A stretch of 64,000 bases of DNA from Ignavibacteria bacterium (GTDB lineage Bacteria; Bacteroidota; Ignavibacteria; Kapaibacteriales; UBA2268). The stretch is from positions 1 to 64,000 of the forward strand of contig JAERMQ010000038.1 of NCBI GenBank assembly GCA_016844745.1, read 5' to 3'. This document shows positions 24,723 to 63,330 of the stretch, in pieces (within the stretch, counting starts at the first letter, position 1; every line of letters starts with the position of its first letter). A program made the translations under genes and the position numbers. The notes beneath the pieces are model-generated. The model saw only the letters and a program-made list of their open reading frames with translations. It had not been told where the DNA came from and searched no databases.

Positions 24723-24750
24723 TGATAATATAGTTAATGAACAATGTATT

Positions 24751-24833
24751 CAAGAGAAACCCCCTAACCCCCTTTGAAAAAGGGGGAACAATAAATTCCC
24801 CCTTTTTCAAAGGGGGTTAGGGGGTTTCTCTTG
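24751..24833. repeat. 38-bp-arm palindromic element, copy 1
   Basis: CAAGAGAAACCCCCTAACCC... continues for 38 bases and is followed, after a 7-base loop, by its exact reverse complement. A second copy with the same arms except the outermost base lies at 35205-35287. It starts 29 bases after the stop of the TPR membrane protein. It encodes nothing and could fold into a very stable hairpin acting as terminator or 3' mRNA cap. Confidence 0.95.
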
Positions 24834-24867
24834 AAATTGTTGGCATTATTTTGAATTTAGAAAAATC

Positions 24868-25026: not shown

Positions 25027-26637
25027 GTGAAAGATATGCTCAGAATATTGATTATCACAACCTTTCTGCTACTTATTTCAGAAGTAAAACTTATTAATGC
25101 CCAGGAACATAGTGAAACTGATAAAAAGATTTTATTCCAAACTCAAAAATTCAAAAATATACTCGAAACAGCCTCTATAAACTCTTTGGACTCATTCGAC
25201 ATCGAAAAGGTTTGCGACGCGGCTTATAACTCATTACTGCGTGAAATAGACCCATTTGGCAGCTACAACCCTCCCGAAAAACAGAAAAATGTTGACGACC
25301 GTTCCCGAGGTGCTACTGAAGGTATTGGTATCGATTTTGTTCCACTCAGCGATACTGCAACAGTTATATCGGTTTTTATTGGTAGTCCGGCAGATTCGGC
25401 TGGTATCCTTACAGGCGATAAAATATTATATGTCAATGGAGAAAATGCCGTTGGGAAAACAAAACCGGAACTTGCAGCAAAAATTTCAGGTGAAAAAGGT
25501 ACATCGGTTACTTTAGTGATTAAGCGTGGCTGGACTTCCACATTGCAGGAGTTCATTATTAAGCGCCTTGATGTTGCCTTACCAAGCTTCGATGCTTCTT
25601 TCCTGATTGCAGGGACTAAAATCGGATATATCAAATGTACAAGATTTTCCGATGTTTCCCATCCCGAATTCGTAAAACTGAAGGATAAGTTAAAAGGCGC
25701 AAAGCAGCTTATCATTGATGTTCGTGGGAATCCCGGCGGCAGCTTGGAGGAAGTTGTGAAAATTGCAGATGAATTCATACCCGAAGGTTGTAAATTAACT
25801 TATACATCTTCGCGTAATCCTATTTATGTACATGAATATAAGTCTTCAGCCGGCGGGATTTTTGAAAGATTTCCCGTTATTATTATCATCGATGCTCTAT
25901 CTTCTTCCGGTAGCGAAGCCCTTGCCGGCGCTGTGCAGGACCTGGACAGAGGTATCGTGGTTGGAGAGCAATCTTATGGTAAAGGCTTGGCACAAAGTCA
26001 ATGGAAAATGACTGACGGGTCGGGATTTCGCCTCACCGTTGCACAATATTACACTCCATCCGGACGCTGCATTCAGAAGCCTTACCATGGCGAGAAACCT
26101 GTACTTGACCCTTCTTTGCTGCTAAATACATCAGCGGGTATGCAAAAAATCTTAGAAGAAATTTATCAGAAAACCGGAGGTAAAACTCAATTACCAATTT
26201 TCCATACATCGCTCGGAAAACCCGTTATTGGTGGAGGAGGCATTTATCCCGATTATTTCGAGAAAAAGGACACGACAACTTTATTAACCCGTGTTTTGTA
26301 CCAGAAAGGTATTTTTATGGAATTGGCTTTTAATTTTCTCTATGTTAATAGAAAAGAAATATCGGAAGAATATGAAAACGACTTTGCCGCTTTCTCTGAA
26401 AAGTTCCGAATCGATGATTCCATGCTCGTAAATCTTAAAAAGTTATCATTTTCAAAGAACATCTGGAACGATGAGATGTTTGTCCAGGATAAAGAAATAA
26501 TACGCATTGAAATAAAAGCCAGTATTGCTTTTGCATTATGGGGCAATAACGGATTCGAATACTGCATGATGCCATTAGATAAACCAATCATGCGAAGTAT
26601 AGAACTGATGCCAGAAGCTGAAAAGATGATGAAATAA
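25027..26637 (+). CDS. S41 family C-terminal processing peptidase (CtpA/Tsp-like)
   Basis: 536 residues with an N-terminal signal/anchor (MLRILIITTFLLLIS). A PDZ domain at ~95-180 ('GIGIDFVPLSDTATVISVF', 'SPADSAGILTGDKILYVNG') is followed by the S41 protease domain with 'IIDVRGNPGGSLEE', the catalytic serine in 'SSSGSEALAGA' and the general-base lysine in 'SYGKGLAQ'. These enzymes cut C-terminal tails of periplasmic proteins with a Ser-Lys dyad. The tracked start is GTG at 25027; an in-frame ATG at 25036 gives a cleaner signal peptide. A C-terminal ~120-residue extension is helical and of unknown role. The stop codon is followed at once by a heptamer repeat array. Confidence 0.9.
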   Translation: MKDMLRILIITTFLLLISEVKLINAQEHSETDKKILFQTQKFKNILETASINSLDSFDIEKVCDAAYNSLLREIDPFGSYNPPEKQKNVDDRSRGATEGIGIDFVPLSDTATVISVFIGSPADSAGILTGDKILYVNGENAVGKTKPELAAKISGEKGTSVTLVIKRGWTSTLQEFIIKRLDVALPSFDASFLIAGTKIGYIKCTRFSDVSHPEFVKLKDKLKGAKQLIIDVRGNPGGSLEEVVKIADEFIPEGCKLTYTSSRNPIYVHEYKSSAGGIFERFPVIIIIDALSSSGSEALAGAVQDLDRGIVVGEQSYGKGLAQSQWKMTDGSGFRLTVAQYYTPSGRCIQKPYHGEKPVLDPSLLLNTSAGMQKILEEIYQKTGGKTQLPIFHTSLGKPVIGGGGIYPDYFEKKDTTTLLTRVLYQKGIFMELAFNFLYVNRKEISEEYENDFAAFSEKFRIDDSMLVNLKKLSFSKNIWNDEMFVQDKEIIRIEIKASIAFALWGNNGFEYCMMPLDKPIMRSIELMPEAEKMMK

Positions 26638-26720
26638 TCAATGGTCAATGGTTAATGGTTAATGGTTAATGGTTAATGGTCAATGGTTAATGGTCAATGG
26701 TTAATGGTCAATGGTCAATG
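26638..26720 (+). repeat. Heptamer array (TTAATGG/TCAATGG) after S41 protease
   Basis: About twelve tandem copies of a 7-base unit, a mix of TTAATGG and TCAATGG, starting on the base after the stop codon. Confidence 0.95.
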
Positions 26721-26793
26721 AAGAAAATTAAGAATTAAGAAGGGAATAAGATAATCTTATTTTTTTCATTCGTAATTCTTAATGGTAAATTTC

Positions 26794-26833: not shown

Positions 26834-26835
26834 AT

Positions 26836-26885
26836 TTAATTGACCATTGACCATTAACCATTGACCATTAATCATTGACCATTGT
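26836..26885 (-). repeat. Heptamer array in inverted orientation
   Basis: About seven units of CCATTAA/CCATTGA (reverse complement of TTAATGG/TCAATGG). With the array at 26638-26720 it forms a long inverted repeat. No minus-strand gene ends here, unlike the other arrays. Confidence 0.9.
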
Positions 26886-26937
26886 TTACTGCTTTTTACT
26901 ATTTTTTACTAAGGAATTCGATTTTTTTTTAAACCTG

Positions 26938-27314: not shown

Positions 27315-30161
27315 ATGAAAAAAACAATCAAAGATGAATTCAATGACCTCGTTTTAAATTTCAAATTGACAAAATATATGGATATGAATGAAAGCCAGAC
27401 AAGGCTCTCGTTTATTGACAAATTCTGGAAACTTCTCGATTGGGATGTTAGCGACCCCGACCAGGTTCAAATTGAAAGAACAGACAGGGATTCCAAAAGA
27501 CCCGATTATAGGTTCATGAAGAGAAATAAAGCTCTGTTCTTCGTTGAAGCCAAGAAACCATCGGAAGATCTGAAAAATCCCAAACATATTTACCAGACTA
27601 AGCTCTATTGCTGGAACGGCAATGTACCCGTAGCAATATTAACGAACTTCGAACAATTCCGCCCTTTCCGCTCTGTCGGCAAGCCAAATATCAATGAAGC
27701 CCACCGTGGCATTATCAAACAATTTGATTTGACTTTTGAAGAATATCCAGACCATGCCAATGAATTGCTTAAAACATTCGGGCGTGAGGCTGTGCTTGCC
27801 GGTTCGCTCGATTTACTTGTGAATCCTACCAGAATTGAATTACGCGATACCGTTGATAAAGATTTTCTTTCAACCTTATCAAAATGGCGGACAGAGCTTG
27901 CAACCCAGATTTCTGCAAAGAATAAATTCGAGAATGAATTCCAGCTTTCAGAAGCTGTTCAGCGAATATTAGACCGGCTTGTATTTCTGCGCATTTTGCA
28001 GGACAGGGAAATTGAGGATGAAGACTTTATGTGCAGGATTTCTCAAAACACTAATGCAAATGCTTACCCTGAATTCCTGAAATTATGCAGTGAGCTTGCC
28101 CCAAAATACAACGGTTTGATTTTTAACCCTCATCCAATATCGGAAAACCTGAAAATCGAAGGGAGCCTTTTCAAGAAAATAGTAACGGAATTGGACTTTG
28201 AGGAATCGCCTTACCGCTTCGATGAAATACCGGTTGAGATGCTTGGAACGATTTACGAACGCTTTCTTGGCGATGAAATAAATTTAGATAAAAAAGGAAA
28301 AGTAGTAATCGACCAGAAACCGGAAGTTCGCAAGGCAGGCGGCGTTTACTACACACCTCAATATATCGTGGAATATATAGTCGAGAATACTGTTGGTAAG
28401 CTTCTTTATGGGGAACAGGGGTCGGGGGACTGGGAACGGGGGACGGGGACAGGAAAAACAAATTTCCGGACCCAGGACCCAGGCCCCCGACCCCCATGTC
28501 GAACACCGGATGACGTTGCTAAACTCAAAATACTCGATCCTGCCTGTGGCTCAGGTTCATTCCTTTTGGGCGCTTTTGATTTGCTCATTGAATGGCATGA
28601 AAAATATTTCTCAAATAATCCGTTAAAAACTTATGAAAAAATCGGGAAAAACAGCTTTACATTAGCTTATTTAGATGAAGCTAAAAAAACAAGACTTACA
28701 GCGAGAATGAAAAGCAGGATTTTAAAGAATAATATTTTTGGAGTTGACATCGATAAACAGGCAACGGAAGTAGCCCAAATGTCGCTTTATTTAAAGGTTC
28801 TTGAAGGATTTTCTGACGAACCCCAAATGCGTATTAATACAAAAGAAACCATTTTACCCCCGCTTGATAAAAATATCCTCTGCGGCAATTCCCTAATCGA
28901 AAGTGATTTTGCACCACAAGAATTATTTGCTAAATTCTCAGTTAGAGACAAACATAAAATCAATCCGTTAGACTGGACTTTAAAATTCCCGTTTATAAAT
29001 GATACTAAAGGTTTCGATGTAGTGATAGGCAATCCCCCATGGGGAGCTGATGTAGTCAAAGATAAAAATTATTTTCAAAATCATTATCAAAATGAAACTC
29101 CTGATAGTGCTGCTTATTTTTTTGAAAAAGCCATTACTCTTTCACTAAAATTCATGGGATTTATCGTTCCAAAAACAATATCATATTATTCTGCATGGGA
29201 AAGTATAAGAAATATCATAATTTCAAATTCTCAGATAGAATATATTTTAGATGTTGGATTGGCTTTCCCGGAAGTTAATTTGGAATCAATAGTTATAATC
29301 GTTAACAAAAAGGATAAAGATGTAACACCTAAAATTTATAAAGCTAATCCTATTAAAAGACCCGTGATACCAAAAGAGATTACATTTGAAGGAAATTTTG
29401 ATAAAGAACTTATAAAAATAGCTAATATAATTCCTTTTATTTCATTAAATCAGAAAGAATCAGCATTATTAAGAAAATTAAGTAAAAACATAACAGTTAG
29501 GGATATTGCTAAAAATATTTTTAGAAGTTTATATATACCTGATGCCGACAAGGTAAATTTCATGAAAGGGAAGTATAAATTTATAAACAAAGTTCCGGAC
29601 GTTAAAAGATATTATATTGAGAAAATATCATTTATTAATTTAGTTAATGGTCAATGGATTGAAAAAGCAAAAAAAATAATGGTACCCAGACTGTTTTTTA
29701 AGGTCTTGAGAGGTAAACGAATTAATTGTTATCCTGACGTAAAAGGAGAATTTTTAACAACTGAAAAATTAGTCAATCTCATTATTGATAAAGAAAAATA
29801 CCCCGTTTCAGAATTTTTTCTTGCAGGAATATTTAATTCTAAATTACCTTCTTATTATATTGAAAAAATATTATTCAGTGATACTACAGAAACATCAAGA
29901 GTAATGGATTCGATTTACTTGAATTTTGTTCCTATTCCCAAAATTAATTTTAAAGATAAGAAAGAAAAATCCCAACACGACCGCATGGTTGAACTTGTCG
30001 AGCGAATGCTAAAAATGCACAAAGAATTGCCGACCGCCAATGAATTTGATAAAAAGCATATAGAGCAATACATAGCAAGAACGGATAAGGAAATAGACGC
30101 CCTCGTCTATGAGCTATACGGGCTGACTGAAGAAGAGATAAAGATTGTGGAGGGTGTCTAA
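27315..30161 (+). CDS. Single-chain restriction-modification enzyme (type IIG/Eco57I-like N6-adenine methylase with nuclease domain)
   Basis: 948 residues. The N-terminal ~150 residues carry a PD-(D/E)xK-type nuclease core ('KRPDYRFM', 'ALFFVEAKKPSE') like HsdR_N. A helical linker ends with 'GGVYYTPQYIVEYIVENT', then come methylase motif I 'LDPACGSGSFLLGAFD' and catalytic motif IV 'VIGNPPWGADV', typical of N6-adenine methylases. The C-terminal ~300 residues resemble the TaqI-like specificity domain ('MVPRLFFKVLRGKRINCYPD'). Known family role: cut foreign DNA while methylating host sites in one polypeptide. Oddity: between 'VGKLLYG' and 'TPDDVAKLKILD' there is an in-frame Gly/Pro-rich stretch of about 28 residues made by a GC-rich inverted-repeat element (see separate entry). 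Base composition of the specificity half is more AT-rich than the N-terminal half. Confidence 0.88.
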   Translation: MKKTIKDEFNDLVLNFKLTKYMDMNESQTRLSFIDKFWKLLDWDVSDPDQVQIERTDRDSKRPDYRFMKRNKALFFVEAKKPSEDLKNPKHIYQTKLYCWNGNVPVAILTNFEQFRPFRSVGKPNINEAHRGIIKQFDLTFEEYPDHANELLKTFGREAVLAGSLDLLVNPTRIELRDTVDKDFLSTLSKWRTELATQISAKNKFENEFQLSEAVQRILDRLVFLRILQDREIEDEDFMCRISQNTNANAYPEFLKLCSELAPKYNGLIFNPHPISENLKIEGSLFKKIVTELDFEESPYRFDEIPVEMLGTIYERFLGDEINLDKKGKVVIDQKPEVRKAGGVYYTPQYIVEYIVENTVGKLLYGEQGSGDWERGTGTGKTNFRTQDPGPRPPCRTPDDVAKLKILDPACGSGSFLLGAFDLLIEWHEKYFSNNPLKTYEKIGKNSFTLAYLDEAKKTRLTARMKSRILKNNIFGVDIDKQATEVAQMSLYLKVLEGFSDEPQMRINTKETILPPLDKNILCGNSLIESDFAPQELFAKFSVRDKHKINPLDWTLKFPFINDTKGFDVVIGNPPWGADVVKDKNYFQNHYQNETPDSAAYFFEKAITLSLKFMGFIVPKTISYYSAWESIRNIIISNSQIEYILDVGLAFPEVNLESIVIIVNKKDKDVTPKIYKANPIKRPVIPKEITFEGNFDKELIKIANIIPFISLNQKESALLRKLSKNITVRDIAKNIFRSLYIPDADKVNFMKGKYKFINKVPDVKRYYIEKISFINLVNGQWIEKAKKIMVPRLFFKVLRGKRINCYPDVKGEFLTTEKLVNLIIDKEKYPVSEFFLAGIFNSKLPSYYIEKILFSDTTETSRVMDSIYLNFVPIPKINFKDKKEKSQHDRMVELVERMLKMHKELPTANEFDKKHIEQYIARTDKEIDALVYELYGLTEEEIKIVEGV
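28411..28500 (+). repeat. GC-rich palindromic element inserted in frame in the R-M gene
   Basis: An abrupt GC-rich block inside an AT-rich gene. GGGGTCGGGGG at 28418-28428 is the reverse complement of CCCCCGACCCC at 28484-28494, with further G-rich/C-rich matching between. Translated it reads 'GSGDWERGTGTGKTNF...' and adds low-complexity Gly/Pro/Arg sequence just before methylase motif I without breaking the frame. Confidence 0.8.
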
Positions 30162-30833: not shown

Positions 30834-30982
30834 ACAAGTTGAAAATTGATTTTCATTTTTAATTGATTATCTTGATTTTTTAATCCTTAATTTTTATTTT
30901 TTTCAATGAACGTTGAACATTAAGAAACACTCCCCGCCTACTGCGTCGGTAGCCCTATGAAAGAGGGGAATTTTACGTTTTT

Positions 30983-31019
30983 ACAATTCTTAATTCGTAA
31001 TTCTTAATTCGTAATTCTT
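30983..31019 (-). repeat. AATTACGAATTAAG array supplying the 3' end of the PLP enzyme gene
   Basis: On the minus strand this reads AAGAATTACGAATTAAGAAT and continues, with a 14-base unit. The last codons (Ile-Thr-Asn-stop) of the minus-strand gene ending at 31004 lie inside it. Related arrays are at 60383-60410 and 63285-63323. Confidence 0.8.
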
Positions 31020-32197
31020 GAAAGTCCCGCTTCCAATCCTGCGATCAAATCATCAGCGCTTTCGATACCGACAGACATACGAATTAATCCGTCGGTAATT
31101 TTAGCCTGAAGGCGTTGTTCTGCTCCCATACTGGCGTGTGTCATTGCAGCCGGATGCTGAATTAAAGATTCCACACCACCAAGACTAACAGCCAATGTCC
31201 AGACTTCGATTGTATTCATCAATATTTTACCTGCTTCCAATCCGCCCTTCAATTCCATTGATATCATTCCGCCTGGTGCAGACATCTGCCTTTTTCCGAG
31301 TTCATATTGCGGATGACTTGGAAGTCCGGGATAGCGCACCCATTCTACTTTCGGATGTTTTTCCAAATATTCGGCAATTTTCCGGGCATTTTCGCTCGAG
31401 CGTTCCATGCGCAATTTTAATGTCTTAATCCCTCTGTGTACGAGAAATGAATTGAACGGGTCGATTACCCCTCCGAAATGATTCAATACTTTTCTAAAAG
31501 CAGGAAATTCATCGCCATTCTTCAAAACTATGATTCCGCCAACTACATCAGCATGTCCGTTCAAAAATTTCGTCAGACTGTGGACGATATAATCGGCGCC
31601 AAAAGAAAATGGTCTTTGCAATGCCGGACTCATGAATGTATTATCAATTGCAAGAGCAGCGCCGTTATCATGGGCTATACGGGCAATAGCAGCAATATCA
31701 GACATTACTAAAGTAGGATTGCCGGGTGATTCGATAAAAATCAGTTTGGTATTTGGCTGGATTGCGGCTTCCACACACGATAAATCCGAAGTATCAACAA
31801 ATGTCACATCTACCTGGAATTTATTTAAATAAGAATTGAGCAAAATTGTCGTAGGTCCATAAACCGATTCGCTGCATACGACATGTTCACCGGCTTTCAG
31901 CAGGGCAATAAACAAAGTGGAAATGGCAGCCATACCACTGGCACAACCTAAGGCTTTTGCTCCGCCTTCCAATGCGGCAATCGAGTTTTCAAGAGCTTCA
32001 ATAGTCGGATTACGCATTCTCGTGTAAATATATCCGTCTTCCTCCCCTTTGAAGAGGCGGGCGCCCTGGTCGGCATCTGTGAATTTGAAAGTTGAAGTCT
32101 GGTAAATAGGGGGGACTATGGCTCCGTGATTATCATTGTATGCGCCGGAGTGGACGCAAAGTGTATCCATGGAATATTCATCTGACGATTTAATCAT
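31004..32197 (-). CDS. PLP-dependent trans-sulfuration enzyme (cystathionine gamma-synthase/gamma-lyase family)
   Basis: 397 residues, normal length for the Cys/Met metabolism PLP family. Diagnostic motifs are 'PPIYQTSTF', 'YTRMRNPT', 'ALGCASGMAAI', 'ESPGNPT' and the PLP lysine in 'SLTKFLNGHADVVGG'. The family makes or breaks cystathionine, homocysteine and methionine in the cytoplasm. The residue after Tyr in 'SVYGPTT' is Gly-Pro rather than the Gly-Cys typical of methionine gamma-lyase, favouring a synthase or cystathionine lyase, but the exact reaction cannot be fixed from sequence. It is divergent from tldD with a 143-base shared upstream region. Its stop codon lies in a repeat array. Confidence 0.88.
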   Translation of the reverse strand: MIKSSDEYSMDTLCVHSGAYNDNHGAIVPPIYQTSTFKFTDADQGARLFKGEEDGYIYTRMRNPTIEALENSIAALEGGAKALGCASGMAAISTLFIALLKAGEHVVCSESVYGPTTILLNSYLNKFQVDVTFVDTSDLSCVEAAIQPNTKLIFIESPGNPTLVMSDIAAIARIAHDNGAALAIDNTFMSPALQRPFSFGADYIVHSLTKFLNGHADVVGGIIVLKNGDEFPAFRKVLNHFGGVIDPFNSFLVHRGIKTLKLRMERSSENARKIAEYLEKHPKVEWVRYPGLPSHPQYELGKRQMSAPGGMISMELKGGLEAGKILMNTIEVWTLAVSLGGVESLIQHPAAMTHASMGAEQRLQAKITDGLIRMSVGIESADDLIAGLEAGLSRITN

Positions 32198-33867: not shown

Positions 33868-35195
33868 TGAAATCATCAAACGAATCATTGCTCAAAATTG
33901 CAGAAAAGCTGCTCTCATTCGGTAAAAGCAAAGGCGCAAGCCAAATGCAAATTTCAATAGGCAAGAGCCAGAATTTCTCCGTCGAAATACGTAACGGTGA
34001 AATAGAAAGACTCCAGGAAGCTGTTTCAACCGGACTCGCTTTAAAAGTAATTGTTGATAAAAAAGTAGCGTCGGCATCATCATCCGATTTGTCCGTTGAT
34101 ACTCTCGAAAAATTAGTCGATAATGCAGTTGCTCGTGCCCGTTATTCAAGCGTTGACGAATTTGCCGAGCTACCGGAACTCGAAAATATCAATGTAAATG
34201 TTGATTCGCTCGAGTTATTCGACCCGGAAGTCGAAACCATAACCCCCGATAAAAAAATCGAAATTGCATTATCATTAGAGAAACTTGGAAAAGCAGACCC
34301 AAGAATCCAGCAATCACTTGGTTCATATTTTGGTAATTCCACAGGTGAATCTTTTTTAGTAAATTCAAACGGATTCTCAGGTTCATATCGCACATCCCGC
34401 TGTTCATCCGGTGTTGAATTGCAGGTGGGCGAAGGGGATAATATGTATGAGGATGGCTGGTCGGATTCTTCGATTTCGTACAAGGGATTGATGGATAATG
34501 ACGAAATTGCCAAAAAGGCTATTCATCGCGCAACACGTCTTATTGGTGCAAAAAAAATCGGTACTCAAAATGTGCCGGTTATTTTCGACCAGCAAATGTC
34601 TGCATCACTTTTAGGATTTTTAGCTTCATGCCTTTATGGAAGCAGTATATATATGAATCGTTCGTTTTTAGCAGGTAAGTTGGATACTAAAATAGCAGGT
34701 GATAATATTAATATCATAGATGATGGACTTATGAAAGCCGGCTTTGGTACTCGTCCCTTCGATGGTGAAGGTGTGCCTACTAGAATTAAGGCTATGATTG
34801 AGAATGGTGTGTTGAAGAATTATTTATTAGATACTTATTCATCAAAAAAACTGAAATTAAAATCGACAGGTAATGCCGGCGGAACAACCAATTTCTATAT
34901 GAAGCCCGGAACTAAAACGCCGGAAGAAATCATAAAATCCGTCGATAAAGGGTTATATTTGGTAAAAACAATCGGACAAGGCACAGTGCCAACTTCGGGT
35001 GATTATTCCAAAGGCGCTTATGGTATCTGGATTGAAAAGGGAGAACTAACCTATCCAGTAGCGGAAATTACAATATCCGGTAATCTCGGCAAGATGCTCT
35101 CGAATATAGAAATGATTGGCAATGACCTTGAATTCAGACGTTCGATAGCAGCGCCGACTTTTAAAATTAGTGAGATTACTATTTCGGGGAAATAG
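33867..35195 (+). CDS. pmbA: TldE/PmbA-family partner of TldD
   Basis: 442 residues, typical for PmbA. Family features: 'GKSQNFSVEIRNGEIERLQE', 'SSKKLKLKSTGNAGG' and the C-terminal 'NIEMIGNDLEFRRSIAAPTF'. It lacks the HExxxH zinc motif, as expected for the non-catalytic half of the TldD/TldE complex. No Tat or Sec signal is visible, unlike the adjacent TldD. The start codon shares a base with the tldD stop. A 38-bp-arm palindrome begins 10 bases after the stop. Confidence 0.92.
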   Translation: MKSSNESLLKIAEKLLSFGKSKGASQMQISIGKSQNFSVEIRNGEIERLQEAVSTGLALKVIVDKKVASASSSDLSVDTLEKLVDNAVARARYSSVDEFAELPELENINVNVDSLELFDPEVETITPDKKIEIALSLEKLGKADPRIQQSLGSYFGNSTGESFLVNSNGFSGSYRTSRCSSGVELQVGEGDNMYEDGWSDSSISYKGLMDNDEIAKKAIHRATRLIGAKKIGTQNVPVIFDQQMSASLLGFLASCLYGSSIYMNRSFLAGKLDTKIAGDNINIIDDGLMKAGFGTRPFDGEGVPTRIKAMIENGVLKNYLLDTYSSKKLKLKSTGNAGGTTNFYMKPGTKTPEEIIKSVDKGLYLVKTIGQGTVPTSGDYSKGAYGIWIEKGELTYPVAEITISGNLGKMLSNIEMIGNDLEFRRSIAAPTFKISEITISGK

Positions 35196-35204
35196 ATAAA
35201 GAAC

Positions 35205-35287
35205 AAAGAGAAACCCCCTAACCCCCTTTGAAAAAGGGGGAATTTATTATTCCCCCTTTTTCAAAGGGGGTTAGGGGGTTTCTCTTT
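35205..35287. repeat. 38-bp-arm palindromic element, copy 2
   Basis: AAAGAGAAACCCCCTAACCC... continues for 38 bases, then a 7-base loop (TTTATTA) and the exact reverse complement. The arms equal copy 1 (24751-24833) except at the outermost base; the loops differ. It begins 10 bases after the pmbA stop. Confidence 0.95.
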
Positions 35288-35322
35288 ACTGAATTTGGTA
35301 AAACTTTATTGAACTAAAAATA

Positions 35323-36723
35323 ATGTTAATAAGAAGAAAATTTCTTTTCGATACCCCTCTTAAAAACTCAACAATAATAGTTGCATCACTCAGCACTTTT
35401 CTGACTGCATTTATGGGTTCTGCAATTAACGTGGCATTGCCTGAAATATCGAAAGAGTTTTCAATGACAGCCGATGTTATGGCATTGATACCAACTATTT
35501 ATCTTTTGGTAACGGCAATATTATTGGTACCATTCGGACGGGTTGCCGATATTTACGGCAGAAGGAAAATCATGCTGTATGGTATGCTCATATTCATGAT
35601 TGGTTCTGCATTAGCCGGATTATCAACTAATACCGATATTCTGATTATCAGCCGTATTATACAAGGAATTGGTTCTTCTATGCTTTTCGGGGTTGGGTTG
35701 GCAATCGTAACTTCAGTTTTTCAACCGGGTGAGCGTGGAAGCGCAATCGGAATCAATATCGCTTCGGTTTATTTGGGATTATCCGTTGGACCAACCATTG
35801 GAGGACTGCTGACGGATACTCTTGGCTGGCGGATGATTTTCAATTTGAGTCTTATTCCATGTATTATAGTTATTTATATTATTATTTTCAAGCTTAAGGG
35901 CGAATGGGCTGAGGCTGCCGGTGAGAAGTTAGATAAGACCGGTTCGGTTTTATATGGAGTAGCAGTTGCACTTTTCATGTATGGATTTTCTCATCTTAAT
36001 ACTACTTTGGGAATTGTTTTGTTTATCTGCGGAACTGCCCTGCTAGCTGCTTTTGTGGTCTATGAAGTGCGCAATTCAAATCCCGTAATGAATATGCGGC
36101 TTTTTAAAAATAATACCGTATTTCTTTTTTCAAATTTAGCTGCATTAATTAATTACAGTGCTACTTTCGCAGTTACTTTTCTTTTAAGTTTATATTTGCA
36201 GATGATAAAAGGATTTTCTGCTCGCCATGCAGGTTTGATACTCGTTGCGCAGCCAATTGTTATGACAATATTTTCACCTGCTGCTGGAAGATTGTCCGAT
36301 AAAGTCGAATCCAGGATTTTAGCCTCCGCAGGAATGCTTCTAACCGCTGCAGGATTGGTTTTGTTATTATTTCTCACCGAGGATTCATCTATAACTTTCA
36401 TCGTTTCCGGGCTTGTATTCTTAGGTTTGGGTTTCGGGCTTTTCTCTTCACCAAATACGAATGCCATTATGAGTTCAGTCGACAAAAGATATTATAGCGT
36501 ATCATCTGCAATATTAAGTACAATGAGGCTACTAGGTCAGATGCTAAGCATGGGAGCAGCGATGTTTGTTCTCTCGATCTATGTCGGGAATGTAAAAATT
36601 ACCCCAGCTAATCATTTACAATTAATGCACAGTATCCGTGTATTATTCGGAATTTTTTCCGTTGCATGCATACTTGGAGTTTTTGCTTCCTATGCACGGG
36701 GGAAACATTTTGATAATGGTTAA
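35323..36723 (+). CDS. MFS drug-efflux type transporter (DHA2/EmrB-QacA-like)
   Basis: 466 residues with about 14 hydrophobic segments. Motif A-like 'PFGRVADIYGRRKIMLYGM' in loop 2-3, 'SRIIQGIGSSMLFGVGLAI' in helix 4 and 'SVYLGLSVGPTIGGLL' (motif C) in helix 5 identify the major facilitator superfamily, DHA2 type, which exports drugs or metabolites using the proton gradient. The substrate cannot be predicted. The C-terminus 'HFDNG' and the stop codon are encoded by the first units of a heptamer repeat array, so the tail may vary between strains. Confidence 0.9.
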   Translation: MLIRRKFLFDTPLKNSTIIVASLSTFLTAFMGSAINVALPEISKEFSMTADVMALIPTIYLLVTAILLVPFGRVADIYGRRKIMLYGMLIFMIGSALAGLSTNTDILIISRIIQGIGSSMLFGVGLAIVTSVFQPGERGSAIGINIASVYLGLSVGPTIGGLLTDTLGWRMIFNLSLIPCIIVIYIIIFKLKGEWAEAAGEKLDKTGSVLYGVAVALFMYGFSHLNTTLGIVLFICGTALLAAFVVYEVRNSNPVMNMRLFKNNTVFLFSNLAALINYSATFAVTFLLSLYLQMIKGFSARHAGLILVAQPIVMTIFSPAAGRLSDKVESRILASAGMLLTAAGLVLLLFLTEDSSITFIVSGLVFLGLGFGLFSSPNTNAIMSSVDKRYYSVSSAILSTMRLLGQMLSMGAAMFVLSIYVGNVKITPANHLQLMHSIRVLFGIFSVACILGVFASYARGKHFDNG

Positions 36724-36850
36724 TGGTTAATGGTTAATGGTTAATGGTTAATGGTTAATGGTTAATGGTCAAAGGTCAATGGTTAATGGTTAATGGTTAA
36801 TGGTTAATGGTTAATGGTTAATGGTCAAAGGTCAATGGTTAATGGTTAAA
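36713..36850 (+). repeat. Long heptamer array with 56-bp higher-order unit
   Basis: About nineteen TTAATGG-type units. A variant stretch TGGTCAAAGGTCAATGG occurs twice, 56 bases (eight heptamers) apart, showing block duplication. The array provides the last two codons and stop of the MFS gene and ends ~20 bases before purL. Confidence 0.95.
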
Positions 36851-36869
36851 GAAAGTAAAAAAAGAATTT

Positions 36870-40930: not shown

Positions 40931-41491
40931 ATGATAGAAATAGGGAAAGTCGGTGTTCAAGACGAAATTTTAACGACATACTTCCAATGCGACCTAGGTA
41001 AATGCCACGGTGGATGCTGTACTTTCCCGGGTGAATACGGCGCTCCGGTGGAAGCAGATGAGGTTGAAGATATTGAAAATTCCGTTCGGGCTGTATCGGA
41101 TTACCTTTCCGTACGCTCGAAAGAAGTGATTAAAAAGGAAGGTGTCGTTACGGACAAATACGGCGAATTAATGACGGTTGTGATTGACAAAAAAGATTGC
41201 GTGTTTGTTTACTATGAAGGCAATATTGCAAGATGTGCAATAGAAAAAGCATATTTCGACGGAAAAACATATTTTCGGAAACCGGTTTCATGCCATCTGT
41301 TTCCGATAAGAGTCAGTTCCAAATACGGATTGTATCTTTATTTTGAAAAAATTCCGGAATGTGCTCCAGCTATTGACAAAGGCTCTAAATCGAAAATTCC
41401 GATGCATGTAATGCTCAAAGATGCGCTGATTAGGCGGTTCGGTAAGAAATGGTACGAAAACCTTCTGGAAGAGATTGAAGGCAAAGGGTGA
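40931..41491 (+). CDS. DUF3109 family cysteine-cluster protein (YkgJ-like)
   Basis: 186 residues from the ATG at 40931. The ORF track starts 11 codons upstream at a TTG, but 'MIEIGKVGVQDEIL' matches the usual family N-terminus, so I prefer the ATG. Cysteines in 'CDLGKCHGGCCTFPGEYGAP', 'DCVFVYYEG', 'ARCAIEKAYFDGK' and 'KPVSCHLFPIRV' form the conserved cluster expected to bind a metal or Fe-S centre. The biochemical role of the family is unknown. The stop is followed at once by a heptamer array. Confidence 0.85.
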   Translation: MIEIGKVGVQDEILTTYFQCDLGKCHGGCCTFPGEYGAPVEADEVEDIENSVRAVSDYLSVRSKEVIKKEGVVTDKYGELMTVVIDKKDCVFVYYEGNIARCAIEKAYFDGKTYFRKPVSCHLFPIRVSSKYGLYLYFEKIPECAPAIDKGSKSKIPMHVMLKDALIRRFGKKWYENLLEEIEGKG

Positions 41492-41492
41492 T

Positions 41493-41592
41493 AAATGGTC
41501 AATGGTTAATGGTTAATGGTTAATGGTTAATGGTCAATGGTTAATGTTTAATAGTTAATGGTTAATGGTTAATAGTTAATGGTCAATGTTTA
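41493..41592 (+). repeat. Heptamer array after the DUF3109 gene
   Basis: About fourteen TTAATGG/TCAATGG units with some decayed ones (TTAATGT, TTAATAG), starting 2 bases after the stop codon. Confidence 0.93.
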
Positions 41593-41630
41593 AACCTAAA
41601 AATCATTGTTCAGTCAAAAATTAAATTATT

Positions 41631-43427: not shown

Positions 43428-44432
43428 TTGAAAAAGAAAATAAATGTTGCCGTAGTAGGTGCAACCGGCTTGGTAGGCAGAAAAATTTTACAGGTACTGG
43501 AAGAAAGAAATTTTCCAATTGAAAGCATCAAACTTTATGCATCTCATAAATCTGCAGGTAATACATTAAGATTTCAGGAAAAAACTCATGTTGTTAAAGA
43601 TATTGAAGCATCTGACTTTTCAGATATCGATATAGCATTGTTTTCTGCCGGGAATTTTGTTAGTGAAAAATATGTACCAAAAGCCGCCGGACAAGGCTGC
43701 ATCGTTATTGATAACGGCAGTTTTTGGCGTATGAATCCCGAAGTTCCGTTAATTGTTCCTGAGGTAAATCCGGAAATGATTATTGGTAATCACGGAATTA
43801 TTGCTAATCCGAATTGTTCTACTATCCAGCTTGTTGTAGCTCTCAAGCCGATTGCCGATAACTTTGGATTGAAGAGAGTCGTCGTTTCTACTTATCAGGC
43901 GATTAGCGGTGCCGGTCAGGTAGGAGTAAGTCAACTTATGTCGGAAATCAACGGCGAACTGCCTGAATCGAGGATTTCAAGTAATCAGTTAGCTTTTAAC
44001 ACGGTATTCCATACTATAAAGGATAATATCGGGTTCTCTATTGAAGAGCTTAAGATGATTGATGAAACAAGGAAAATTCTCGCTTTACCGAAACTGCCAT
44101 TGGCAGTAACCTGCGTTCGCATTCCCGTTCTAAACGGTCATGCAGAATCTGTAAATATTGAGACGGAGAAGCCATTCACAATTTTCGAGCTAAAAGAAGT
44201 TTTGGGGAAGAGCCTGGGTATCGAATTGGTTGATGACCCTATTAATGAAGTTTATCCAACACCATTAATGGTCGAAAATAAGGACGAGGTTTTTATTGGA
44301 AGAATTCGCAAGGATGAATCGATTGAAAATGGTGCTTATCTCTGGGTGGTATCCGATAATTTACGGAAGGGAGCCGCAACCAATGCTGTTCAGATTGCGG
44401 AGAAGGTGCTCGAATCAATGGTCAATGGTTAA
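43428..44432 (+). CDS. asd: Aspartate-semialdehyde dehydrogenase
   Basis: 334 residues. NADP-binding 'GATGLVGRKILQVLEERNFP', catalytic cysteine in 'NPNCSTIQLV' and 'YQAISGAGQ' identify Asd, which reduces aspartyl phosphate to the semialdehyde for lysine, diaminopimelate, threonine and methionine synthesis. The start is a TTG at 43428 preceded by AGAAAGGA at good spacing; no in-frame ATG occurs before the Rossmann motif, so the TTG is well supported. The C-terminal 'SMVNG' and stop are encoded by heptamer repeat units, an unusual tail. Confidence 0.94.
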   Translation: MKKKINVAVVGATGLVGRKILQVLEERNFPIESIKLYASHKSAGNTLRFQEKTHVVKDIEASDFSDIDIALFSAGNFVSEKYVPKAAGQGCIVIDNGSFWRMNPEVPLIVPEVNPEMIIGNHGIIANPNCSTIQLVVALKPIADNFGLKRVVVSTYQAISGAGQVGVSQLMSEINGELPESRISSNQLAFNTVFHTIKDNIGFSIEELKMIDETRKILALPKLPLAVTCVRIPVLNGHAESVNIETEKPFTIFELKEVLGKSLGIELVDDPINEVYPTPLMVENKDEVFIGRIRKDESIENGAYLWVVSDNLRKGAATNAVQIAEKVLESMVNG

Positions 44433-44477
44433 TGGTCAATGGTCAATGGTCAATGGTCAATGGTCAATGGTCAATGG
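44416..44477 (+). repeat. Heptamer array overlapping the 3' end of asd
   Basis: About nine units, mostly TCAATGG. The first TTAATGG unit supplies the asd stop codon. Confidence 0.95.
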
Positions 44478-44510
44478 AAAAATATATAAACTACGAATTT
44501 TGGAAATAAA

Positions 44511-54271: not shown

Positions 54272-56209
54272 ATGCTTGAGAATAAATCTGATTTACGTGT
54301 ACAAAAAAATAGAAATATTCGAATTATTCCATATATTTCGAATATAGACGGCAAAAATAGATATCTTTTAAGTGATGCTGAAATATTATTTAAGCCGTTA
54401 GAAAAAAAGAAAACTATCATAGTTAGGTCTGGTAAGAAATTTCTTATGGGTGATGCTGATTTTCTGTTCAGGGATAATCTTGGGAAAGCACGGCAAACCC
54501 GAACAGTAGCTCATGTTAATAATTCGGATAAAATCGAAAAATCTACTGAGGCTGTTAAGGTAACCTCTCAATATAAAAAAGTAGCAAATGGTTTTTCTGC
54601 ATTTGCCACTCTTAGTGGTCCATTAAAGGATACCATAACAAAATCCTCGATGGTTAAGGTTCTGAAAGCACTTGCAATAATTTTCTTAATTAGCATAGCT
54701 TCATGTAATCTTTCAGGGCAGAATGTGATGGCAAATAATTCGGGCAGTTCGTCATTCGATAGCCGCTTTGCACCTTATTATGAAGCAACAGACGGTAAGC
54801 TGTTCTGGACGAGTCCTGTGCCAAGGGAAAGAAATAAATACATTACTTACTCGGCAGAGGCTTCTTCGGATAATTTATTGAAATTAAACAGCCAACCTGA
54901 GAAAGTTGAAATATCCGGTTTTGGGAAACAAATTCAATCAATAGGCTCAATCAAGGCTTCTTCCGATGGCATGAAAATCGTCGGAGCAGCTACAACGATT
55001 GAGCCTGCGGGTGATTCTACCTGGATGATATTTATTGCCGAGCGACAACAAAAGGATTATACTTTTAAGAAAATGATTTATTCCGGTAAGTCTTGGGCTT
55101 CGCATCCCTGCTTTGGTTCGAAGGATACAGTGGTGTATTTTTCGCTTTTGGAAGATACCAAAACCAATGCGGATATTGTATTCTCGAAATCAAATCGTCT
55201 GGGGGATTGGTCGGCGCCAAGCAAGCTTACAACCCGGATTAACACTCCCTACAATGAGATTTCCCCGTATTACTACGAAGGAAATAATGAAAAAATTTTA
55301 TATTTTGCCTCCGACAGAACGCTTGGCAGCGGAGGCTTTGATTTATATGAATCTTCTTTTGATACGGAAGATAAGGAATGGTCTTATCCGAAGCCGATGA
55401 GTTCTCTGAATTCAGCTTCGGATGATGCTTTTCCTGCAATTGCATTCAACGAAAAAGGAGGAAGTTCTGTTCTTTTTGCTTCAACCCGGGATAACGGCAA
55501 TGACTGGAAGCTTTATCAAGGGAAGATTAATATCGAAAAAGAAAAACCTAAGACTTTGGTTTTGAAAGTTATAGTTTTCAAATGTGTTGGCGTTCGAAAA
55601 ACAGAACCTTATCAAATGGCTAATGTACGGGTGCGACAAGTGGAAAGCTTCCGGAATTTAGCAAACCAAACTACCGATGTTAGGGGAGAAACTTTCTTCA
55701 GGTTAAATAATGAGGGACAATTTTTTATTGAAGCTTCCGCTATAGGCAAAGCAGTTGACTCCAAGCAAATCACAATAACTAAACAGGATTTAATCATTGG
55801 TTCGCCCATTACAGTCGAGCTTTGCCTTGAAAAAGATGAAACTATGATAAGGGATACCGTTCTCTTTGCTTTCGGGAAAAGTGATTTACACTTGTCGAAT
55901 GATTTTTATTTAACAACGAACCGGATAAACGAATACTTGAAGGATAATCCGGATAACAGAATAATAATCGAGGGACATACTGATAAAATCGGTTCTGATG
56001 AATATAATATGAAGCTATCGCAGGACAGAGCCGAAGCTGTACGGAATCAAATATTATCCAAATATGGCATTTCTCCTTTGTTAATCAAAGCAGAAGGGCG
56101 CGGAAAGAGCAAACCATTAGTTGATTGCACGAACCGGTATGATTGCAGTCCTAACCGCCGGGTACAAATAATTTATACGAGCAGGAACTATCAAAACTGG
56201 AACAAGTAA
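54272..56209 (+). CDS. PorE-like envelope protein: PD40 repeats, CRD-like domain and OmpA peptidoglycan-binding domain
   Basis: 645 residues from ATG 54272 (the track's TTG at 54260 adds four). Residues ~1-125 are soluble-looking with a duplicated motif ('LLSDAEILFKPLEK', 'LMGDADFLFRDNLG'). A hydrophobic signal with lipobox then appears ('LAIIFLISIASC'), so either the protein has an unusual N-terminal extension or translation really starts at ATG 54650 ('MVKVLKALAII'), giving a normal lipoprotein. Next come PD40/WD40-like blades ('RFAPYYEATDGKLFWTS', 'NEKILYFASDRTLGSGGFDLYE'), a carboxypeptidase-regulatory-like domain, and OmpA ('IIIEGHTDKIGSDEYNMKLS', 'NRRVQIIY'). PorE, the peptidoglycan anchor of T9SS, has this order plus TPRs, which are absent here. 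A heptamer array follows within 4 bases of the stop. Confidence 0.82.
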   Translation: MLENKSDLRVQKNRNIRIIPYISNIDGKNRYLLSDAEILFKPLEKKKTIIVRSGKKFLMGDADFLFRDNLGKARQTRTVAHVNNSDKIEKSTEAVKVTSQYKKVANGFSAFATLSGPLKDTITKSSMVKVLKALAIIFLISIASCNLSGQNVMANNSGSSSFDSRFAPYYEATDGKLFWTSPVPRERNKYITYSAEASSDNLLKLNSQPEKVEISGFGKQIQSIGSIKASSDGMKIVGAATTIEPAGDSTWMIFIAERQQKDYTFKKMIYSGKSWASHPCFGSKDTVVYFSLLEDTKTNADIVFSKSNRLGDWSAPSKLTTRINTPYNEISPYYYEGNNEKILYFASDRTLGSGGFDLYESSFDTEDKEWSYPKPMSSLNSASDDAFPAIAFNEKGGSSVLFASTRDNGNDWKLYQGKINIEKEKPKTLVLKVIVFKCVGVRKTEPYQMANVRVRQVESFRNLANQTTDVRGETFFRLNNEGQFFIEASAIGKAVDSKQITITKQDLIIGSPITVELCLEKDETMIRDTVLFAFGKSDLHLSNDFYLTTNRINEYLKDNPDNRIIIEGHTDKIGSDEYNMKLSQDRAEAVRNQILSKYGISPLLIKAEGRGKSKPLVDCTNRYDCSPNRRVQIIYTSRNYQNWNK

Positions 56210-56212
56210 TTT

Positions 56213-56268
56213 TAATGGTCAATGGTTAATGGTTAATGGTTAATGGTTAATGGTTAATGGTTAATGTT
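56213..56268 (+). repeat. Heptamer array after the OmpA/PD40 gene
   Basis: About seven TTAATGG units, one TCAATGG, starting 4 bases after the stop. Confidence 0.93.
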
Positions 56269-56310
56269 AAAAATAAATGTTAGAAGTATTATGTTGAAAT
56301 TTGAAAAATA

Positions 56311-60382: not shown

Positions 60383-60410
60383 TTAATTACGAATTACGAA
60401 TTACAAATTG
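60383..60410 (-). repeat. AATTACGAATTAC array after the fibre-like gene
   Basis: TTTAATTACGAATTACGAATTACAAATTG starts 1 base after the stop. Related to 30983-31019 and 63285-63323. Confidence 0.7.
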
Positions 60411-60433
60411 ATAAATAAAATGGTTAGAGAAGA

Positions 60434-60464
60434 TGTCTGAATTAGGATTAAAGGATTATAGGAT
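60434..60464 (-). repeat. Dispersed ATCCT...TTCAGACA element (reverse)
   Basis: TGTCTGAATTAGGATTAAAGGATTATAGGAT is the reverse complement of an ATCCTATAATCC...TTCAGACA element, close to 44511-44550. Confidence 0.6.
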
Positions 60465-60504
60465 AAAATATTATAACTTATAACTTATAATTCATAATTA
60501 TAAA

Positions 60505-62232
60505 ATGGTAAGTGTAAAAATGAAAAAGAAATTGAATATAAAAGATAATACAAGGAATGAAGGGAGATTTGTATTCAGGAAATTGAAGAAGACAATCCCT
60601 GCTTTATTCATTGTATTTTGTTTGTGCGGAATTATTAAGGCTCAATCACCACCCCTACTGCCACCGGATTGGGGTGACGGTACTCCGTCATATATCCTTT
60701 GGAGTTGGGGATTCCATAGCGGGGCTGACTCTATGTCCAAAGCTCCCGGATTGCGGCTTTATGGCGCTGCCCTGACGGGACTCAGCTATCCAATAAAGTT
60801 TTTATCGTTAGACGTTGCTAAGTGGAGTGTACAAGGCGTCAGGGTGTTGGATAATATTAATTATGGCGATAGCCTTAAGAATACTATTTTCCCGGTTCCA
60901 GTTGTTCGGGTTGCTGAACCGGGCAGACGTTTAGACGGCTTTAAATATAGCGAACCGATAGACTTCCATAGTGTAGATTTGGATTCAATAGCTACGAAAC
61001 AGGTCATTTTGCGAAATACCGGACATTCAAAATTGAATATTCCTATGAGTGAGTTTTATAGCTCTTCAAGTCGCGCATTTACCGGTGTTACAACAACCAC
61101 ATTAGCTTATATTCAACGCAGTGACCAGGTTCAGGCAAATGAAGTCAAGTGGCAGATACGGGATACCGAAGCTGCGCCGCGTCCCGGTGATACTTTGGTG
61201 AATACTACCCGTGATAAAGACACTATAATAGCCGCACTAAATCCCGGCGATACGATTAGTTTCTATATTGATGCTCTACCGAGAATTGTAGGGCGAAAGG
61301 TTGATTCGCTTGTATTTGAGCGGATGGACGGATTGGATAAATCAAGTTATTCTATTCCGATAAAACTCCTTTCAACATGGACTATGTTCTATGACTTCGG
61401 CTCCAATAATGTTAGAGCAGCCACACCATCTTATTCCGGTGATTTCATCGATACAATTCGAATTTCTAATAATAAGGGAAACCGCACTCGCATAACATCT
61501 ATGCGACTCGCTATGACATTCAATAAATATAATCTATTTATTAAGGATTTTGAATTCGATTCGACCGCATTTCCCGCAGGCTGGAAATTCAGGATTGACT
61601 CTTTAAGTAAGAATGAGAAGAATGGATTGGTATTAGTTGAAGCCTGGGCTGATACGAATTATTTATTGAAGCAAGGAACTATTAGTTCGGAGGATTTAAG
61701 CTATTTCGTAAATGGAAATGCCGATACTGCAATAGTTATCGGAAGAATAAAAGGAATGCAGCTTCTTGGGACTTCCGACTCAACTGAAATGAATATTGAC
61801 ACATCACGTTCGCAGCATAATTTTTCAACTGATTACCTTGCTGTTCGGGATTCAGCGCTTAAAACCGATAAAATACCTTATATCAGAACTATTCGTGGTG
61901 TAATTATTTCCGATAGTCTTGCATTTTTGAAACATAGATTATTAGCCGGACCAACAATGAGTGCATTAATCGAAAATGTATATCCGAATCCTGTTGGCGA
62001 TAATTCAAATTTATCTGTGGAATTATCAGCTAATACCGAAATAACAGCTTCATTGAAAATATATGAAACATTGACCGGTGCAGAAATAAAGAATATATTT
62101 GATAATAAAAAGCTGAAAAACGGCAAGGAGTCGGTTTCGTTCAACGTGAAGGATTTGAATTCCGGGAATTATTTCATCGTACTCAAATCCGCAAACGGCT
62201 CGGATATATGGATGTTAAATGTTATTAAGTAG
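60505..62232 (+). CDS. T9SS cargo protein with type A sorting domain
   Basis: 575 residues. A long basic n-region (~1-30) precedes the signal core ('IPALFIVFCLCGIIKAQ'); an ATG at 60520 is an alternative start. The body has ASH-like beta domains ('VDLDSIATKQVILRNTGHSK', 'PGDTISFYIDALP'), then a helix-poor middle. The last ~85 residues match the T9SS type A sorting domain ('ENVYPNPVGDNSNLSVEL' to 'YFIVLKSANGSDIW'). Role: exported to the cell surface; function unknown. The next gene begins 8 bases after the stop, so the cargo and the small barrel protein are co-expressed and possibly partners. Confidence 0.88.
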   Translation: MVSVKMKKKLNIKDNTRNEGRFVFRKLKKTIPALFIVFCLCGIIKAQSPPLLPPDWGDGTPSYILWSWGFHSGADSMSKAPGLRLYGAALTGLSYPIKFLSLDVAKWSVQGVRVLDNINYGDSLKNTIFPVPVVRVAEPGRRLDGFKYSEPIDFHSVDLDSIATKQVILRNTGHSKLNIPMSEFYSSSSRAFTGVTTTTLAYIQRSDQVQANEVKWQIRDTEAAPRPGDTLVNTTRDKDTIIAALNPGDTISFYIDALPRIVGRKVDSLVFERMDGLDKSSYSIPIKLLSTWTMFYDFGSNNVRAATPSYSGDFIDTIRISNNKGNRTRITSMRLAMTFNKYNLFIKDFEFDSTAFPAGWKFRIDSLSKNEKNGLVLVEAWADTNYLLKQGTISSEDLSYFVNGNADTAIVIGRIKGMQLLGTSDSTEMNIDTSRSQHNFSTDYLAVRDSALKTDKIPYIRTIRGVIISDSLAFLKHRLLAGPTMSALIENVYPNPVGDNSNLSVELSANTEITASLKIYETLTGAEIKNIFDNKKLKNGKESVSFNVKDLNSGNYFIVLKSANGSDIWMLNVIK

Positions 62233-63229: not shown

Positions 63230-63284
63230 AAGTCGTTTAAAAATAGAAATCACATAAATACGTGATTACTATTTATAAAACGAA

Positions 63285-63323
63285 ATTATTAATTCGTAAT
63301 TCGTAATTAATAATTCGTAATTG
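63285..63323. repeat. TTCGTAATTAA array before tRNA-Phe
   Basis: TTATTAATTCGTAATTCGTA followed by ATTAATAATTCGTAATTG: three to four units related to 30983-31019 and 60383-60410. It lies inside the predicted 5' leader of the tRNA transcript. Confidence 0.75.
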
Positions 63324-63330
63324 AAGTAAG

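Follow-up and report, generated by a model that had tools for sequence, protein, structure and literature searches.

An in-frame, GC-rich block within a type IIG restriction-modification (R-M) gene of an Ignavibacteria bacterium is, with a probability of roughly 80%, a copy of a dispersed non-coding repeat that landed in a surface loop of the enzyme, left the rest of the protein intact and is now translated with it. The block, which lies within a 64,000-nucleotide stretch of DNA analysed as a whole (the window), consists of two arrays in opposite orientation, built from a 7-base unit (approximately GGG(G/A)(A/T)CN), with an AT-rich loop between them. What appears to be new, as far as the open-access literature shows, is that in this genome such G-rich heptamer arrays are mostly intragenic and in frame, including in essential genes such as murA.

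The R-M protein carries an HSDR_N-type nuclease region, an N6-adenine methylase and a C-terminal specificity part, and matches the Pfam families Eco57I (E 2e-29), N6_Mtase (2e-11) and HSDR_N (4e-6). The PD..EAK, DPACGSG and NPPW motifs, read from the translation, are intact, and the fusion of a nuclease to an N6-adenine methylase with DPACGSG and NPPW places the enzyme in the type IIG, Eco57I-like class. The palindromic GC-rich block that an initial annotation had pointed out in this gene is present: the reading frame stays open through it and over all 948 codons, G+C reaches 0.63 over positions 28400-28499 where the surroundings are at about 0.40, and single-strand folding of the insert exceeds that of dinucleotide shuffles (z = -3.9 as DNA and -4.2 as RNA, with 1 of 200 shuffles equal). 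It is palindromic, as described, but its anatomy is rather that of two inverted heptamer arrays, the units in the G-rich arm including GGGGTCG, GGGGACT, GGGAACG and GGGGACG. The parts of the element and the other genes found to host such arrays are listed in Table 1.

Table 1. Features of the R-M gene and its insert (window coordinates), and open reading frames hosting G-rich heptamer arrays in the same genome.
Feature	Position	Strand	Basis
Type IIG (Eco57I-like) restriction-modification gene, 948 aa	27315..30161	+	Pfam and motifs
Insertion, 30 codons (residues 365-394), YGEQGSGDWERGTGTGKTNFRTQDPGPRPP; relatives have 2 residues	28407..28496	+	Homologue alignment
G-rich arm, heptamer array, G-quadruplex-type motif	about 28408..28453	+	Sequence reading, pattern and G4 motif scan
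AT-rich hairpin apex	28454..28463	+	Sequence reading, folding
C-rich arm, inverted heptamer array, G-quadruplex-type motif on the - strand	28464..28496	+	Sequence, folding, G4 scan
Host ORFs, restriction-modification: gene with the 28407-28496 insert; C8 R-M gene (two arrays); C21 R-M gene; type ISP R-M gene			Pfam
Host ORFs, secretion: three T9SS sorting domains; one T9SS protein with the array near its N-terminus			Pfam
Host ORFs, other: cinA, adenylate/guanylate cyclase, histidine kinase, pyrF, rdgB, murA			Pfam
Host ORF: one large ORF without a Pfam domain

In a search of 80 relatives' genomes, the closest R-M homologues match residues 1-364 and 395-948 and skip residues 365-394, so that alignment to homologues, the check named beforehand, shows an insertion. 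The R-M protein had no match among the proteins of the named genomes searched. Relatives had been said to run directly from GKLL to TP..V, and homologues in other genera do so, reading GKLL-EN-CRTPDDV..DPACGSG or similar where the gene studied here reads GKLL-YGEQGS...RPP-CRTPDDV; the net change of +28 residues agrees with the approximately 28 that had been estimated. The nearest relatives compared belong to other genera, and the insertion ends and any target duplications are known only to within a few bases. In the structure model of the R-M protein, residues 370-393 have pLDDT below 50 and lie between a helix and methylase motif I. The stretch between GKLL and motif I tolerates inserts, because the R-M homologue (L076) of G006, from another genus of the same family, has an unrelated GC-rich palindromic insert there (GGGCTGAAGCCC, ACGGCTTCAGCCGT); three R-M paralogues of the present genome carry an array at this site. 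The enzyme with its insert is probably still active, judging from its sequence. The suggestion that the insert alters the coupling between the domains or has inactivated the enzyme finds no support, given the intact motifs, the predicted disorder of the loop, the tolerance of an insert there by three paralogues and the unrelated insert at the same spot in another genus; a loss of activity is likewise not indicated.

The alternative that the loop is shared by close homologues as part of the family does not hold outside this genome, although the C8 R-M paralogue (L046), 75% identical in the aligned N-terminal part, carries a near-identical element at the same site. The two elements are 95% identical, in genes whose flanking synonymous sites are near saturation: among codons for the same amino acid, the third base is kept in 26 of 26 inside the element vs 42 of 102 in the two flanks (Fisher p = 8e-9). 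The differences within the element mostly change amino acids, the only length difference is 3 bases, which keeps the frame, and the shared unit has sharp ends. Because third bases are kept in the element but have diverged in the flanks, we infer that copying of the element between the two R-M genes probably took place well after their divergence; alternatively, the identity could stem from constraint acting on the DNA sequence. The C8 paralogue also has a second heptamer array at L046 3057-3137, just before methylase motif IV (NPPY).

The genome, a 5.0-Mb draft in 128 contigs, contains 116 matches to a G-array pattern; reversing the pattern as a control gives 20, and the relatives searched have 0-4 apiece. 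The matches listed fall into about 24 clusters, of which two lie at contig ends and another two, having a single arm, are less secure, so that the genome search for the element in and out of genes, as proposed in the initial annotation, uncovered a dispersed family located mostly within open reading frames (ORFs). Twenty clusters can be placed clearly: 16 lie inside ORFs, all with the frame open throughout, and four lie between genes or at a C-terminus. This in-frame bias is partly definitional, since any array that disrupted an ORF would have counted as intergenic. The arrays are poor in stop codons, with 62 of 102 frames open where 28 would be expected for window stretches of equal length. 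Clusters vary in length from about 70 to 290 bp, with degenerate units, unequal arms and variable unit number, and show no constant terminal sequence, their exact ends being known to within a few bases. A unit census and G4 scan found tandem 7-base units with GGG tracts, in runs of four or more able to form G-quadruplexes. With an orientation-free pattern, the G arm came first in all 17 two-armed clusters of this genome. The elements in two of the T9SS genes are recognisably similar to each other; a search of the genome for an empty T9SS site found no sufficiently close copy. One pattern match (C45, L161) was discarded as the ordinary ATP-binding motif of a kinase. At L048 and L053, several types of translated heptamer array (ATTACGA-, ATATCGA-, AAGTCGA- and GGGTWTA-like) are adjacent within one ORF.

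The genome has a single copy of murA, with an insert of about 70 residues. Of 60 genomes searched, 57 have a MurA match, the present genome among them, and every relative's alignment that covers the site lacks the insert, ending near residue 278 and restarting near 350; in G010, whose MurA is 79% identical ahead of the site, the aligned parts are 3 bases apart. Likewise, pyrF is single-copy, and its approximately 17 insert residues are missing from the PyrF of relatives. Against solved structures, MurA, RdgB and CinA align on either side of their inserts, and the solved structure of PyrF is gapped at the insert. In an AlphaFold2 model of MurA most of the core has pLDDT above 90, while the insert (residues 278-346) is below 50 and sits between two strands. 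Going by such models, the inserts look like translated, disordered loops, and the host genes, from model and sequence together, look functional.

The window also contains a second class of heptamer array, AATGGT(T/C), at 26628-26728 with 26834-26887, 36705-36855, 41484-41596, 44409-44490 and 56206-56280. These arrays, which include at least one inverted pair, start no more than about 25 bases from the upstream genes' stop codons and, unlike the stop-poor G-rich arrays, contain stop codons. That stop-poor arrays are intragenic and AATGGT(T/C) arrays sit at gene ends would fit an arrival blind to genes, followed by a filter on coding capacity. Additional 7-base-periodic, AT-rich arrays (AATTCGT-like) occur at 30979-31026, 60384-60421, 60462-60508 and 63281-63326, mostly adjoining gene ends. 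A separate palindromic family (ACCCCCTAACCCCCTTTGAAAAAGGGG...) is intergenic in the window, at 24737-24852 and 35191-35306, and across the genome its half-site pattern matches 134 times in forward and 132 times in reverse orientation, frequently in pairs that face each other.

The strict inverted pattern was absent from the other 395 genomes sampled in the phylum (396 with this one). Named genomes of other phyla, among them Gemmatimonadota, Chloroflexota, Planctomycetota, Acidobacteriota, Latescibacterota and Spirochaetota, contain it in at least 114 stretches. In-frame arrays there occur in dnaE (twice) and in genes for carbamoyl-phosphate synthase, Lon, phosphotransacetylase and phosphoglucomutase, among others, as well as in the alpha-beta linker of a glycyl-tRNA synthetase, and the peptides encoded are similar to those seen here. 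The DNA polymerase III alpha genes L191 and L172, from two unrelated phyla, each have an in-frame array, in different domains. Arrays of other phyla are nonetheless under-represented in genes, with 25 of 86 in long spanning ORFs vs 50 for random positions, which makes the present genome unusual in having most of its copies within genes. Because the cross-phylum set was selected with a G-first pattern, its arm orientation carries no evidence.

We envisage that arrays arrive, or are copied, regardless of gene function. Copies of suitable length that fall in tolerant loops would leave the host protein working and would survive selection, because the arrays are stop-poor in all six frames, and most other arrivals within genes would be lost. 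The translated insert would then serve as a flexible Gly/Pro/Arg linker, and slippage and recombination may afterwards change the length of the array. Recombination between arrays, break repair and a transposase acting in trans are candidate routes for new copies, and we favour copying based on homology and break repair over transposition: the fixed arm order, the unequal arms and the lack of an evident target duplication together suggest copying during break repair. A more specific version, in which both 3′ ends of a double-strand break are extended with G-rich heptamers before being joined, as a bacterial counterpart of interstitial telomere repeats, would yield the G-first inverted geometry, the unequal and non-identical arms and the absence of an evident target duplication; we regard it as a long shot. 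If it were true, an end-adding break-repair activity recurrent across phyla would be seeding in-frame loops in essential proteins. Production of the arrays by a telomerase-like reverse transcriptase, or linkage to a reverse transcriptase, was considered and set aside, since RVT_1 is missing from four of ten other array-bearing genomes, some of which may be incomplete.

A transposase-mobilised element of the MITE or REP/RAYT kind, moving in trans and preserving frames by chance, would explain the dispersed palindromes and the sharp ends of the copied unit, and the genome has six Y1_Tnp matches. The flanks of these that were fetched contain no three-unit arrays, no mobility or other neighbour gene recurs near arrays at 116 loci of other genomes, and the variable length, the want of a constant terminal sequence and the lack of a clear target duplication also argue against a transposable unit, leaving this origin unlikely. 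Growth in place, through slippage from short G-rich seeds, would account for the unequal arms and varying unit number and is in keeping with the general 7-base periodicity (11 arrays in the window vs 0-1 at each of periods 5, 6, 8, 9 and 11). Slippage, however, yields direct arrays and not inverted pairs in fixed order, the corresponding sites in relatives are short and have no G-rich seed, and the tract common to the two R-M paralogues is not a product of slippage; we therefore consider growth without insertion quite unlikely.

That the loop is a functional, selected linker for regulation or coupling in the R-M enzyme, and no passenger, might be read from the arrays at the same site in three paralogues, from another insert there in one relative and from the high conservation of the element between two of the paralogues. 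Inserts of the same kind, however, occur in the unrelated MurA, PyrF, RdgB, CinA, cyclase and T9SS domains, relatives without the loop retain the motifs, and the predominance of amino-acid-changing differences alongside fully kept third bases is the opposite of what selection on the protein would leave, all of which makes a selected linker improbable. Least credible of all is that the R-M gene has become a decaying pseudogene, with the block as debris: a GC-rich, low-complexity insert within a catalytic protein might give that impression, but frame and motifs are intact, the indel within the element keeps the frame, and the single-copy murA and pyrF genes have inserts of the same kind. Insertion of a dispersed repeat into a tolerant loop remains our preferred reading.

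In-frame palindromic insertion at this scale is known mainly from Rickettsia, and here a single genome holds at least 16 inserts. If the loops are neutral, they would amount to a natural map of where essential proteins tolerate insertions and could supply new linkers, and the strict orientation of the arms offers a handle on the making of heptamer arrays, a recurrent feature of bacteria for which no mechanism is known. In the open-access literature we found no report joining heptamer arrays with in-frame palindromic insertion, which is not proof of absence, and none in which in-frame insertion was widespread among essential genes.

Among known systems, the resemblance to Rickettsia palindromic elements (RPEs) drawn in the initial annotation is apt in part. 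RPEs lie in frame in unrelated metabolic genes, are presumably translated, measure about 150 bp and encode family-conserved peptides (review PMC10969869); the elements described here share the dispersed, in-frame palindromic insertion into unrelated protein genes and presumed translation, but are degenerate heptamer arrays of widely varying length. The comparison is thus useful as an analogy, and kinship or membership is unsupported. REP/RAYT and MITE families are likewise dispersed short palindromes, from which our elements differ in having no constant ends, no linked transposase that we could find and no clear target duplication. Nematomorph mitochondrial genes hold coding palindromes, with perfect repeats of up to 284 bp (PMC6649704); these too are inverted repeats within coding sequence, unlike the heptamer arrays in their make-up. 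The anatomy of the elements fits the heptamer repeats of Xanthomonas, Nostoc and Geobacter better. As far as the accessible part of its description goes (PMC2700814), the Geobacter metallireducens element consists of four direct heptanucleotides (GGGACCG), occurs in 49 copies within and between genes and was proposed to act as a regulatory RNA element; it shares GC-rich heptamer arrays in and between genes with our family, which differs in its inverted pairing and in-frame translation. The G-rich repeats described by Rehm et al. 2015 (PMC4692102), with the unit GGGAATC in Xanthomonas and GGGGA(C/T)T in Nostoc, lie mostly between genes, the intragenic share being 7-11% in Xanthomonas and reaching about one third in Nostoc, and are under-represented on the coding strand; two Xanthomonas genomes have 70-75 convergent inverted pairs each. 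Like these, the elements reported here are GGGN4 heptamer arrays that are G-quadruplex-capable, dispersed genome-wide, variable in unit number and paired as convergent inverted arrays; they are set apart by a different unit and by lying mostly within genes and in frame.
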